Part shown: in pieces, positions 20,564 to 58,187 of the stretch | Layout of the letters: every line of letters begins with the position of its first letter | Position numbering within the stretch: the first letter of the stretch is position 1 | Source of the DNA: Carnobacterium gallinarum DSM 4847 | GTDB taxonomy: Bacteria > Bacillota > Bacilli > Lactobacillales > Carnobacteriaceae | NCBI RefSeq assembly: GCF_000744375.1 | Contig: NZ_JQLU01000004.1 | Location: forward strand, 186,001 to 250,000 | Reading direction: 5' to 3' | Length of the DNA: 64,000 nt | Program-made: the position numbers and the translations under genes | Notes under the pieces: model-generated | Told to the model about the DNA's origin: nothing | Database searches by the model: none | Seen by the model: the letters and a program-made list of their open reading frames with translations, nothing else

Positions 20564-21286
20564 ATGAAAACCGATGCGGTAAGTATACTGATTGTCGATG
20601 ACGAAGAAAGAATTCGACGCTTATTGAGAATGTATTTAGAACGTGAAAATTTCATTATTACCGAAACCGATAATGGAGAAGATGCACTTTCTTTAGCTTT
20701 AGAAAATGATTATGATTTAATTTTATTAGACTTGATGTTACCCAAAATGGATGGGATTGAAGTAGCTAAAAACTTAAGAGAAACAAAAGAAACACCTATT
20801 ATGATGTTAACAGCTAAAGGTGAAGAAACAAATCGTGTACAAGGGTTTGAAGTTGGAGCAGATGATTATATCGTGAAACCATTTAGCCCACGGGAAGTTG
20901 TTTTACGTGTTGCTGCTATTTTAAAAAGAACTCAAAGTGTGAAACCAGTAGTACCAGAAAATCCTGATTTAATTGTTTTTCCACATATCGAAGTAGACAA
21001 TCAAGCCCATCGTGTTTTAGCAGATGGCAAACCAGTGAATTTGACACCTAAAGAATACGATTTACTCCTTTATTTGGCTCAGGCACCAGATCAGATTTTT
21101 GGTCGTGAACAATTGCTACGTGAAGTGTGGAAATATGAATTTTTTGGAGATTTACGAACAGTGGATACACACGTAAAAAGGCTTCGTGAAAAATTAGCAC
21201 AACAATCAGATCAAGCAGCTAAAATGATTGTGACTGTCTGGGGATTAGGGTATAAATTTAATTCTCATTATGACTCTAAGGAGTAA
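20564..21286 (+). CDS. resD: ResD/SrrA-like response regulator
   Basis: A 240-residue OmpR-type regulator. The receiver has the canonical acidic pair in LIVDDEE, phosphoacceptor Asp in LILLDLMLP near 57, MMLTAKGEE and the Lys of VKPFSP. The winged helix spans about 140-235 (LTPKEYDLLLYLAQ, TVDTHVKRLREKL, TVWGLGYKF). The cognate kinase follows 6 bp later. Position after rluB is that of ResD in Bacillus, SrrA in Staphylococcus; those control respiration and oxygen response. The resABC cytochrome genes are absent, so the regulon here probably differs. Confidence 0.85.
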   Translation: MKTDAVSILIVDDEERIRRLLRMYLERENFIITETDNGEDALSLALENDYDLILLDLMLPKMDGIEVAKNLRETKETPIMMLTAKGEETNRVQGFEVGADDYIVKPFSPREVVLRVAAILKRTQSVKPVVPENPDLIVFPHIEVDNQAHRVLADGKPVNLTPKEYDLLLYLAQAPDQIFGREQLLREVWKYEFFGDLRTVDTHVKRLREKLAQQSDQAAKMIVTVWGLGYKFNSHYDSKE

Positions 21287-21292
21287 CCCTGT

Positions 21293-23110
21293 ATGACAAA
21301 ATTAAATAGTATCGTTTTTCGGACATGGATGGTGACAATGGGAATTGTCGCCTTTTGTTTAATTAGTAGTACCTTAATTTATTCCAGTATTTATCAAAAG
21401 CATGTTGAAAAAGTATATGTAGATGAATTTAATGAATCTATTTCCAATGTAGAGAAGTTAGTGATGGAGAATCCAGAATTTTTATTAAAAAATCCGGATA
21501 AATTTGAACCATTTGATACACATTTATTTTTTACGATTGAATACAATGGTGAAAAACGTGAATTTTTCAATAATTATGATAAAGAAATTGGAATTGATAA
21601 AACGTTTATTAATCGGATTTTAAGCCGAAAAGATGTAGTGAAGTCTGTTAAAACCGGGGTTGATGATGAGATTCATGGGCATGCAGAGTTAGCTGGATAT
21701 AGTAATTCCGATTTTATTTTATCGATTAAACATTTTAGTTATAATGGCAAAAAAGGCGTGCTTTATTCCTATGGAGATTTATCTTTTTTAACTAAAATTG
21801 CAAATCAAATGAGTTATTGGACCCTTTCTATTTTTCTGATGTTATTGTTATTATCAATTTTATTTTATTATTTCTTGAAGTTAAAAATTGGAGATCCGTT
21901 ATCAAAAATGCGAGATATTGCTTTTGAGTATGCTAAAAATGATTTTACTCACCAAGCCCCTGTAACATCAAAAGATGAGTTGTTACAATTAGCTTTAGCT
22001 ATGAATAAAATGGGGAAATCTTTGGAATCGATTGGAATGGCAACCAGGCAAGAGAAGGAATTATTGGCTCATATTCTATCCTCTATGACGACGGGTGTTT
22101 TATTCTATAATCGTGATAAAGATTTGTTGATGTCCAATCCAATGGGTGAGGAATTCTTGCAACAGTGGCGTCGTAGTGCTCAGTATACGAACTCTGATAC
22201 GATTCCTTATATTTTAGATCAAAAAATTAATGAGATTATTGAAAGCACAGTAGATGTAACCTTTGAATTACAATTAGATGATTATTATTATAAAATTAAT
22301 CTAGTTCCTTTGTATAGTGAGGACATGATTACGGTTCGTGGTGTGTTAGCTTCAGTGCAAGATATGACGAAGGAACGTCGTTTAGATACAATGAGAGTTG
22401 ATTTTATCAGCAATGTTTCTCATGAACTTCGGACACCTTTAGTGATGATTCGTGGATACAGTGAAGCAATCTTGGATGATGTGGCTGAAACTCGTGAAGA
22501 AAAACATGAAATGGCTAAAATTATTTGGGAAGAGTCTGAACGCATGAGTAAAATGGTAAATGAAATGTTAGATTTGTCTAGAATGGAAGCGGGTTATATT
22601 GAACTACAATGTACAGATGTTGATTTGTACGGTTTTGTTCGTGATTTAATGTCACGTTTTAATCAAATTGCCCAGTCAGGTGAAGTAACATTATCTTTTG
22701 AAATTCAAAAGGGAATGGACACGTACTATATGGATGAAGACAAAATGAGTCAAGTTTTGTTTAATTTAACGAATAATGCCATCCGTCACACCATTATGGC
22801 CAATCGAGAAGATGGCGAAGTCCGAATTAGTGTTCGTTTAGATCGAATTATGGATGAACTATTGATTGAAGTGTTGGATAATGGAACTGGAATTCCAAAA
22901 AAAGATTTGCCTTATATTTTTGAACGCTTCTTCAAGGTAGATAAATCTCGAGTAATTGATAAACAAAACCAAACGGGAACAGGGATAGGTTTGTCAATTG
23001 TAAAAAATATTGTTGAAGAGCATGAAGGATATATGGAAGTTCAGAGCGAGGAAAATGTTTCAACTAGTTTTATTATACATTTACCTTATCAAGATAAAAT
23101 TGAAAAATAA
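21293..23110 (+). CDS. resE: ResE/SrrB-like sensor histidine kinase
   Basis: A 605-residue membrane kinase. Transmembrane helix 1 is about residues 12-30 and helix 2 about 175-198, enclosing an extracytoplasmic sensor of about 145 residues. HAMP follows (to about 250), then a PAS-like domain (LAHILSSMTTGVLFYN near 262), the phosphorylated His in VSHELRTP near 380 and the ATPase with FNLTNNAIRH, LDNGTGIP, YIFERFFKVDK and GTGIGLSIV. It presumably phosphorylates the regulator encoded just upstream. The signal is unknown. Confidence 0.9.
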   Translation: MTKLNSIVFRTWMVTMGIVAFCLISSTLIYSSIYQKHVEKVYVDEFNESISNVEKLVMENPEFLLKNPDKFEPFDTHLFFTIEYNGEKREFFNNYDKEIGIDKTFINRILSRKDVVKSVKTGVDDEIHGHAELAGYSNSDFILSIKHFSYNGKKGVLYSYGDLSFLTKIANQMSYWTLSIFLMLLLLSILFYYFLKLKIGDPLSKMRDIAFEYAKNDFTHQAPVTSKDELLQLALAMNKMGKSLESIGMATRQEKELLAHILSSMTTGVLFYNRDKDLLMSNPMGEEFLQQWRRSAQYTNSDTIPYILDQKINEIIESTVDVTFELQLDDYYYKINLVPLYSEDMITVRGVLASVQDMTKERRLDTMRVDFISNVSHELRTPLVMIRGYSEAILDDVAETREEKHEMAKIIWEESERMSKMVNEMLDLSRMEAGYIELQCTDVDLYGFVRDLMSRFNQIAQSGEVTLSFEIQKGMDTYYMDEDKMSQVLFNLTNNAIRHTIMANREDGEVRISVRLDRIMDELLIEVLDNGTGIPKKDLPYIFERFFKVDKSRVIDKQNQTGTGIGLSIVKNIVEEHEGYMEVQSEENVSTSFIIHLPYQDKIEK

Positions 23111-23151
23111 ATGTATAAAATATTATAGCTAACTATTAGTAAGCAATTAGC

Positions 23152-23179
23152 TTGCATAATTACAAATATACGGTATAAT
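23152..23179 (+). promoter_or_regulatory. Predicted promoter of the ribU transcript
   Basis: TTGCAT at 23152-23157 and TATAAT at 23174-23179 with a 16-bp spacer. Transcription should begin near 23186, inside the palindrome that follows. Confidence 0.7.
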
Positions 23180-23180
23180 G

Positions 23181-23206
23181 TTTGTATACATTGCAATGTA
23201 TACAAA
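23181..23206. promoter_or_regulatory. Perfect 26-bp palindrome over the ribU transcription start
   Basis: TTTGTATACATTG at 23181-23193 is followed immediately by its exact reverse complement at 23194-23206. It starts one base after the -10 element. It is a strong candidate repressor operator; it could alternatively form a 5'-end hairpin in the transcript. Confidence 0.65.
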
Positions 23207-23221
23207 ATAATTTAATGATTC

Positions 23222-23343
23222 GTCTTCAGGGGCAGGGTGTAATTCCCGACCGGTGGTAAAGTCCACGACCTATTTAGTTCGCTAAATGGCTGAACTGGTG
23301 TAATTCCAGTACCGACAGTAAAGTCTGGATAAAGAAGATGGGG
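23222..23343 (+). ncRNA. FMN riboswitch aptamer (RFN element)
   Basis: All conserved RFN segments are present in order: CTTCAGGGGCAGGGTG, AATTCCCGACCGGTGG, AAAGTCCACGACC, a variable hairpin, CTGGTGTAATTCCAG, TACCGACAGTAAAGTCTGGAT and the closing AAGAAG. It binds FMN and, with the terminator downstream, shuts off ribU when flavin is plentiful. Confidence 0.95.
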
Positions 23344-23360
23344 CTTATTTGAATCTATTC

Positions 23361-23413
23361 AAATGCTCTGTTTAGTATGTTCTGAAGAGAAACTACTGAC
23401 GAGCATTTTTTTA
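23361..23413 (+). terminator. Riboswitch-controlled terminator of the ribU leader
   Basis: AAATGCTC at 23361-23368 pairs with GAGCATTT at 23401-23408, with extra pairing inside the long loop, followed by a run of T. It sits between the FMN aptamer and ribU. Confidence 0.75.
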
Positions 23414-23519
23414 TTTAATTAATTTATTTGATAACGAAATAGATTGATATTAAGTAGTGTTGTAATAGAGGAGAATAATTCCACAATCGCTCTAGATGAA
23501 TCCTTTTAGGAGGATTTTT

Positions 23520-24113
23520 ATGAAAACCAGTAATACCAAAAGATTAGTAGGAATTGCCATGTTTGGGGCAATTGCTTATGTGTTAATGTTCTTTGCTTTT
23601 CCAATCTTACCCAGTGCGTCCTTTTTAAAAATTGATTTTAGTGATATTCCAATTTTATTAGGTATGTTTCTATATGGTCCAATGGGTGGTGTATTGATTG
23701 CGTTAATTCGGAGCATCTTACATTATGTGCAAACGGGTGGCGATATGGGCTATCCAATTGGTGATGTAGCAAGCTTTGTAGCAACATTAACGTATGCTTT
23801 TCCAATTTACTTGATTATCAATAAACAACTTAAAAAACAAAAATTAACGTTGCCTCATATGGTAATGGCAAATGTCACAGGAACTGTTAGTATGACGGTT
23901 GTCATGTCTATAGCTAATTGGCTGATTTTAACGCCATTATATTTAGCTGTAATGGGCTTTAGTGTAGGACCAATTAGACAATACATTTTACTTGGGATTC
24001 TACCTTTTAATATTATTAAAGGGCTACTAGTCAGTATTGTATTTATCTTCATGTTCAGTACAATGCAGTCTTGGATTATCAAAAATCAAGCGAATACAAC
24101 TCTTTATAAATAA
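23520..24113 (+). CDS. ribU: Riboflavin ECF transporter substrate-binding subunit RibU
   Basis: A 197-residue integral membrane protein with about six helices, the S component that captures riboflavin and works with the shared EcfAA'T module encoded elsewhere. Typical features are a basic N-terminus (KTSNTKRLVGIAMFGAIAYV), SASFLKIDFSDIPILLGMFLYGP near 35-60 and the GDVASFVATL segment. The FMN riboswitch directly upstream confirms the substrate class. TAGGAGG at 23507-23513 sets the start at ATG 23520; an ATG at 23496 lies ahead of that site. No riboflavin synthesis genes are present in the window. Confidence 0.95.
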   Translation: MKTSNTKRLVGIAMFGAIAYVLMFFAFPILPSASFLKIDFSDIPILLGMFLYGPMGGVLIALIRSILHYVQTGGDMGYPIGDVASFVATLTYAFPIYLIINKQLKKQKLTLPHMVMANVTGTVSMTVVMSIANWLILTPLYLAVMGFSVGPIRQYILLGILPFNIIKGLLVSIVFIFMFSTMQSWIIKNQANTTLYK

Positions 24114-57788: not shown

Positions 57789-58187
57789 ATTGTAAATTTT
57801 GGGTAATTGCGGTCTAGCTAGACTAGGCTGAGGAAAGTCCATGCTCGCACAAGCTGAGATGCTTGTAGTGTTCGTGCTTAGCGAAACAATAAGCTAAGGC
57901 CTTTATCAATTGATAAAGTAACGGCAGAAAAAAAGTGCTAAGGTTAATTTATTAACTATGCCTGAGTATTCTTGAAAAGTGCCACAGTGACGAAGCATTA
58001 ATGGAAACGTTAATGGTGGAACGCGGTAAACCCCTCGAGCGAGCAACCCAAACTTTGGTAGGGGCACTCTTTCTAAGGAATTCAACGAGAGAAAGAGGCA
58101 AGTAATTGCAGACAGATAATTACCTCCGGATAAAACAGAACCTGACTTTTTATCTGAGACAGAACATGGCTTACAGAAATTTACAAT
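57789..58187 (+). ncRNA. rnpB: RNase P RNA, class B (Bacillus type)
   Basis: About 399 nt. Ends pair as the P1 helix (ATTGTAAATTT with AAATTTACAAT). Conserved blocks in order are GAGGAAAGTCCATGCTCGCAC, AAGTGCCACAGTGACGAAG, GGAACGCGGTAAACCCCTCGAGCGAG and AACATGGCTTACAG. It is the catalytic RNA that trims tRNA 5' leaders. The gpsB-rnpB-ypsC order is the same as in B. subtilis. A strong terminator follows. Confidence 0.97.

Follow-up and report, generated by a model that had tools for sequence, protein, structure and literature searches.

A perfect palindrome at the predicted ribU start of Carnobacterium gallinarum as a candidate 5'-terminal stem-loop ahead of an FMN riboswitch

FMN riboswitch leaders are commonly viewed as an aptamer followed by an expression platform, and a palindromic DNA sequence in a promoter may be misread as an operator. 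The two points meet at ribU of Carnobacterium gallinarum DSM 4847, where a long perfect palindrome precedes an FMN aptamer, and the question is whether this sequence acts as DNA, as RNA or not at all. We addressed it in the window, the whole 64,000-nucleotide stretch of contig NZ_JQLU01000004.1 that was analysed, and by comparison with ribU leaders of the family and of the order.

The palindrome and the predicted ribU leader

Upon inspection of the sequence we found a perfect 26-bp palindrome at 23181-23206, upstream of ribU, in which TTTGTATACATTG (23181-23193) abuts its exact reverse complement CAATGTATACAAA (23194-23206) with a spacer of 0. A single base separates it from a TATAAT -10 hexamer (23174-23179; this and all features below lie on the forward strand), seen both in the sequence and in the alignment of relatives, and a -35-like hexamer, TTGCAT (23152-23157), lies at a 16-bp spacer from the -10, with TTGC-type hexamers at the equivalent position in seven hairpin-bearing relatives. 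The promoter is non-consensus and is absent from the list of a generic promoter scan. Transcription is predicted to start within 23184-23188, at G23184 or A23186 (5 and 7 nt after the -10, respectively), and the palindrome overlaps this interval. The first-pass annotation had placed a perfect 26-bp palindrome over the predicted ribU start and upstream of the aptamer, and both sequence and coordinates agree with that description. The symmetry extends 3-5 bp upstream of the predicted start, a part that an RNA hairpin would not need.

Arms of at least 13 bp arose in one of 20,000 dinucleotide-preserving shuffles of the local 130 bp, and of 100 shuffles of the full 64 kb, one contained an arm of 13 bp. 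The window contains five perfect palindromes with arms of at least 8 bp, of which the one at ribU is the longest and the runner-up has 10-bp arms. The half-site at up to two mismatches occurs five times in the window against 4.89 in shuffles, which is no excess.

As RNA, the palindrome is predicted to form a 5'-terminal stem-loop (23184-23203, from folding and from the relatives). If transcription starts at G23184, the predicted hairpin has 8 bp, a UGCA loop and an energy of -7.6 kcal/mol, and if it starts at A23186 the hairpin has only 6 bp and -2.6 kcal/mol. The latter value is ordinary for such a base composition (z of -0.43, with 89 of 300 shuffles folding equally well; second estimate, z of 0.28), and since the fold energy from A23186 is not significant, the case rests on comparison and not on a single energy. 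An A/T-rich linker (23204-23217), unpaired in the fold of hairpin and aptamer together, leads to the FMN riboswitch aptamer, an RFN element found with the RF00050 covariance model (23218-23343; 108.5 bits against a gathering score of 66.2), whose start lies 11 bp from the end of the palindrome. Downstream, local folding predicts an antiterminator stem (23337-23372), present in the minimum-energy fold as well, and an intrinsic terminator with a T run (23361-23411, stem 23361-23408). The two overlap and are thus mutually exclusive as folding predictions, so that the ribU riboswitch is predicted to be of the terminator type. In full-leader folds the 5' hairpin remains separate from the aptamer.

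The frame at 23520-24113, which we take to be ribU, encoding the S component of a riboflavin transporter, from the first-pass annotation and general knowledge, had its start picked by means of an AGGAGG Shine-Dalgarno sequence (23508-23513); the mechanical open reading frame begins at 23496. Relatives of RibU are present in all 18 family genomes, every one of which has an FMN riboswitch, and the names among the RibU relatives include Trichococcus, Jeotgalibaca and Bavariicoccus. A local fold also predicts a hairpin at 23498-23517 that takes in part of the Shine-Dalgarno sequence. At the relative locus L032 a transposase-like frame, named by reading (181-1500), fills the space from the FMN riboswitch to ribU, some 1.2 kb, and this insertion may uncouple ribU from its riboswitch; the letters of the Shine-Dalgarno hairpin precede ribU there as well, which suggests that ribU translation may also be tuned. 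Upstream of ribU lie genes named by reading as a response regulator (20564-21286) and a histidine kinase (21293-23110). The generic terminator scan of the window, which missed the riboswitch terminator, lists no terminator-like site from the end of the histidine-kinase gene to the promoter of ribU (23110-23152), so read-through into the riboswitch is possible.

Stem-loops at the predicted start in relatives

We aligned 36 ribU upstream regions on the aptamer, from 18 family genomes and 18 named loci, after re-orienting the five that lay on the opposite strand. An inverted repeat follows directly 3' of the -10 in all three sampled genomes of the window's genus (g1) and in all five sampled of a second genus (g2); the remaining 10 family genomes lack it, as do all 18 named loci. 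When folded from 7 nt after the -10, eight of the 36 leaders have a stem from +1 and the remaining 28 give 0.0, so that within the family the hairpins are confined to g1 and g2 (8 of 18 genomes). The hairpin-less relatives have A-rich leaders without a predicted structure of their own.

The letters of the stems differ between species. The arms are GUAUACAU/AUGUAUAC in the window, UUGUACAU/GUGUACAA and UUGUACAU/GUGUAUAA in its congeners, and in g2 they include GUACAU/AUGUAC, GUACAA/UUGUAC and AGUACA/UGUACU. The distance between half-sites is 6, 7 or 8 nt, loop size varies too (by reading), and at one locus, L004, a stem position is paired only as G-U. Conservation of the palindrome, which the first-pass annotation had made a test of its claim, thus holds for the stem-loop structure at the predicted start (8 of 18 family genomes) and fails for the letters. 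In a tree of RibU, g2 clusters with the hairpin-less genera g3, g4 and g6 (support 94/89) and the g1 rows fall outside, a topology of moderate support with some long branches under which loss and two gains are both possible within the family.

Covariation was counted on seven relatives, with the window row omitted. Pairing holds for 89% of the stem cells and drops to 16-59% in controls that shift the 3' partner by 1-3 columns. In two pairs both sides have changed, and in one a G-C has become G-U. Among 500 shuffles of these seven rows, the observed number of paired cells was reached 34 times, that of doubly changed cells 7 times and the covariation score 28 times; the number of pairs altered on both sides was reached 361 times and that of further pair types 273 times. 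The seven-row count is given alongside an eight-row one because the window row, whose arms are longer, is misaligned there: with it included, 83% of the stem cells pair, and the corresponding counts in 500 shuffles are 19, 13, 19, 153 and 348. RNAalifold recovers seven of the eight pairs on the eight-row alignment. The stem is kept in relatives despite differing letters, by the pairing of the seven rows and in all five leaders of a further genus, g11, whose alignment was left out of the covariation counts because its stems are misaligned. Overall, these comparisons support a stem that has been retained, with formal covariation that is modest and does not amount to proof.

Furthermore, we extended the comparison to the order. 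A search with RF00050 matched 195 of 198 genomes, of which 44 were searched again, and 139 loci were examined, 103 with a RibU-like sequence downstream; these loci were chosen from listings and for genus diversity and are a non-random sample, the leaders of g11 and of g20 having been completed after the first g11 matches. Together with the 36 above this gives 175 loci, of which a promoter score of at least 10.5 keeps 171 (137 ribU, 34 other), and removal of identical leaders leaves 112 ribU leaders and 30 others, those shorter than 10 nt being counted without folding. A hairpin was accepted at -2.5 kcal/mol or better with its first paired nucleotide at +1 or +2. By this measure 15 of the 112 distinct ribU leaders carry a hairpin, against 2.04 expected from shuffles, with the first paired nucleotide at +1 in 13 and at +2 in two, relative to the predicted start. 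In the other FMN-riboswitch leaders, which are few and short and make a weak control, none of 30 qualifies, and with 0.48 expected this zero is uninformative. Since 97 of the 112 ribU leaders lack a hairpin, it is dispensable in general.

Outside the family, hairpins occur in 5/5 ribU leaders of g11 and in 0/12 of g20 (both of family f6), in one of seven examined in g12 (f7) and in one genome of g41 (f9), the genus tallies having been compiled by hand. Two of the g11 stems, L187 and L188, lack GTAC; between them one U-A pair is inverted to A-U and one G-C is replaced by G-U. Taken singly, a stem turns up in 1-34% of the shuffles of its own leader, and the single f7 and f9 cases, at 34% and 18%, are the least certain (weakest stems, L166 with 34% and L105 with 18%). 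The placement at +1 agrees with base composition after the -10: in ribU leaders G peaks at nucleotide 7 (57/131) and T is the commonest letter at nucleotide 6, which supports the predicted +1 assignment, and purines as a class (105/131) are less telling because the leaders are A-rich. The 5' hairpin that the first-pass annotation had offered as its second possibility gains support as a structure from these stems, which differ in letters yet recur at the equivalent predicted place among relatives and across other families.

Of 55 intergenic promoter-like sites in the window, that of ribU alone has a hairpin at +1/+2 that reaches -2.5 kcal/mol, though 10 show a fold at least this stable somewhere within their first 30 nt. 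A second FMN-riboswitch locus is present in eight family genomes (four of g2, four of g3), with a RibD-like frame in 3/3 of those translated; half of the eight carry the ribU hairpin. None of these ribD-type leaders folds (0/8, all 0.0), but merely 11-13 nt precede the aptamer stem, so that they could hardly hold such a hairpin. By genus, the second locus is found in 4/5 genomes of g2 (with the ribU hairpin), 4/6 of g3 (without it) and 0/3 of g1, and a tie between the hairpin and riboflavin synthesis was rejected, as these second loci give no clear link.

At the second locus, tandem FMN riboswitches lie about 265-273 nt apart; seven relatives have a doublet and one has a triplet (L047, at G010:C7:118074-118726, and loci in G003, G004, G005, G007, G008, G011 and G012). 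Such tandems are known already, with 31 doublets and four triplets given in the accessible part of PMC9481103. Elsewhere in the window, a gene for class B RNase P RNA lies at 57795-58178 (319.7 bits).

Candidate explanations of the palindrome

The reading that we consider most likely, with a probability of roughly 0.55 for structure and decay role jointly, is that the palindrome encodes a 5'-terminal stem-loop of the mRNA and that this stem-loop impedes 5'-end-dependent decay. Comparison of leaders supports the putative element, its placement at the predicted +1 and the retention of its stem through letter changes; where transcription truly starts and how decay is affected are matters that we infer. 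Transcription from 23184-23188 by RNA polymerase would produce a ribU leader with its first nucleotides base-paired, followed by the short A-rich linker, the FMN aptamer and the antiterminator/terminator switch. The paired end would impede enzymes that need a single-stranded 5' end, namely RNase J1/J2 and any 5'-pyrophosphohydrolase, and would thereby lengthen the life of ribU mRNA and of the terminated leader, leaving FMN sensing unaltered. Two RNase J-family proteins score over the cut-off in each of the 18 family genomes. The pyrophosphohydrolase model YtkD (TIGR02705, the BsRppH model) gives weak sub-cut-off matches only and none over the cut-off in the 18, whether the hairpin is present or absent, and a YtkD-type RppH was rejected as the cause of the hairpin's distribution. 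In the accessible part of PMC3997798, a hairpin at or near the 5' end is described as able to stabilise long downstream regions in B. subtilis, BsRppH as requiring at least two unpaired 5' nucleotides, and RNase J1 as degrading from a 5' monophosphate.

A recurring hairpin at the predicted start of ribU suggests that the lifetime of the leader or mRNA is a second tuned property of riboflavin uptake. A bolder extension, which we hold to be quite improbable, is that the FMN-terminated ribU leader, about 225 nt long and paired at both ends by the +1 and terminator hairpins, is itself a long-lived RNA; riboflavin repletion would then yield a small and stable RNA, either acting in trans or storing an 'off' state, and such a stable terminated leader would have evolved independently at ribU in several lineages.

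Second in likelihood, and in our judgement unlikely, is that the hairpin acts in initiation or early elongation (start choice, promoter escape, anti-backtracking) or insulates the aptamer from an A-rich 5' tail. A stem that starts at the predicted +1 could form after some 20-25 nt of transcription, as an early role would have it, and the separation of hairpin and aptamer in the full-leader folds suits an insulator, but the hairpin-less relatives manage with A-rich leaders devoid of predicted structure.

Less likely again, and doubtful on several counts, is a DNA operator, with a dimeric repressor or activator bound to the 26-bp dyad over +1 as a second layer of control on the riboswitch. One-component repressors have operator palindromes, and the site resembles these in that a long perfect dyad overlaps the start; its 13-bp arms, partly outside the transcribed region, occupy a position at which repressors often act, and arms with TGTA/GTAC recur in two genera. 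It differs from such operators in being a single copy, in spacing and letters that vary among relatives and in the G-U pair. The palindrome is found nowhere but at ribU in the 4.04-Mb genome (five contigs) at up to three mismatches, and its core has three further places at exactly two mismatches and none at 0-1. A related repeat matches at 0-1 mismatches only at ribU in G001 and G002, and its totals at up to two mismatches on both strands are close to those of a reversed control there (8 against 9 and 8 against 8; 19 against 12 in G000). A regulon of palindrome-type sites, for which the first-pass annotation had suggested searching, is thus rejected, none being visible for the palindrome at up to three mismatches or for the core and the congeners' related repeat at up to two. 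The palindrome neither recurs at other promoters nor stands letter for letter in close relatives, the half-sites keep no constant spacing (6, 7, 8 nt), L004 holds one pair through G-U alone, and other lineages have unlike letters at the equivalent place. The DNA-binding repressor proposed at first is left without support by the single genomic copy, the varying half-site spacing and that G-U-only pair.

The weakest reading, a coincidence of AT-rich sequence or drift in which functionless repeats come from a duplicated self-complementary start sequence (GTAC, TGTATACA), can draw on the GTA/GTAC that many of the order's ribU leaders have at their predicted start, where a direct duplication of GTAC alone makes a hairpin, on single stems as common in shuffles as those of L166 and L105 and on the modest covariation, but is made very improbable by 15 hairpins seen against 2.04 expected, by their presence in 3/3, 5/5 and 5/5 genomes of three genera, by stems that lack GTAC (L105, L187, L188) and by perfect 13-bp arms in only one of 20,000 local shuffles.

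Comparison with known leaders

The protective stem-loop, as the reading we prefer, would join two kinds of element that are each already known: FMN riboswitches and 5' stem-loops that stabilise mRNA. The open-licence literature that was searched has no account of the two recurring jointly at ribU, and the accessible parts of PMC4342826 and PMC4585701 contain no description of such a hairpin element; the latter reports a mutation of Lactococcus ribU that raises expression and is located after the riboswitch, ahead of the ribosome-binding site. Like terminator-type FMN riboswitches (RF00050), the leader in the window has an aptamer over the gathering score and a predicted antiterminator and terminator, and unlike most RFN leaders examined it has an extra hairpin upstream.

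Known stabilising 5' stem-loops, as given in the accessible part of PMC3997798, include those of E. coli ompA and papA, bla with an added hairpin, and 5' hairpins in B. subtilis. The ribU hairpin differs from these in that it precedes an FMN riboswitch, is short and A/U-rich, and has an effect on half-life that we infer; unlike B. subtilis, the 18 family genomes have no YtkD-type RppH over the cut-off. It resembles the E. coli and B. subtilis stem-loops in that its stem begins within 1 nt of the predicted +1, so that no single-stranded 5' end would remain free, and in the presence of RNase J-family proteins.
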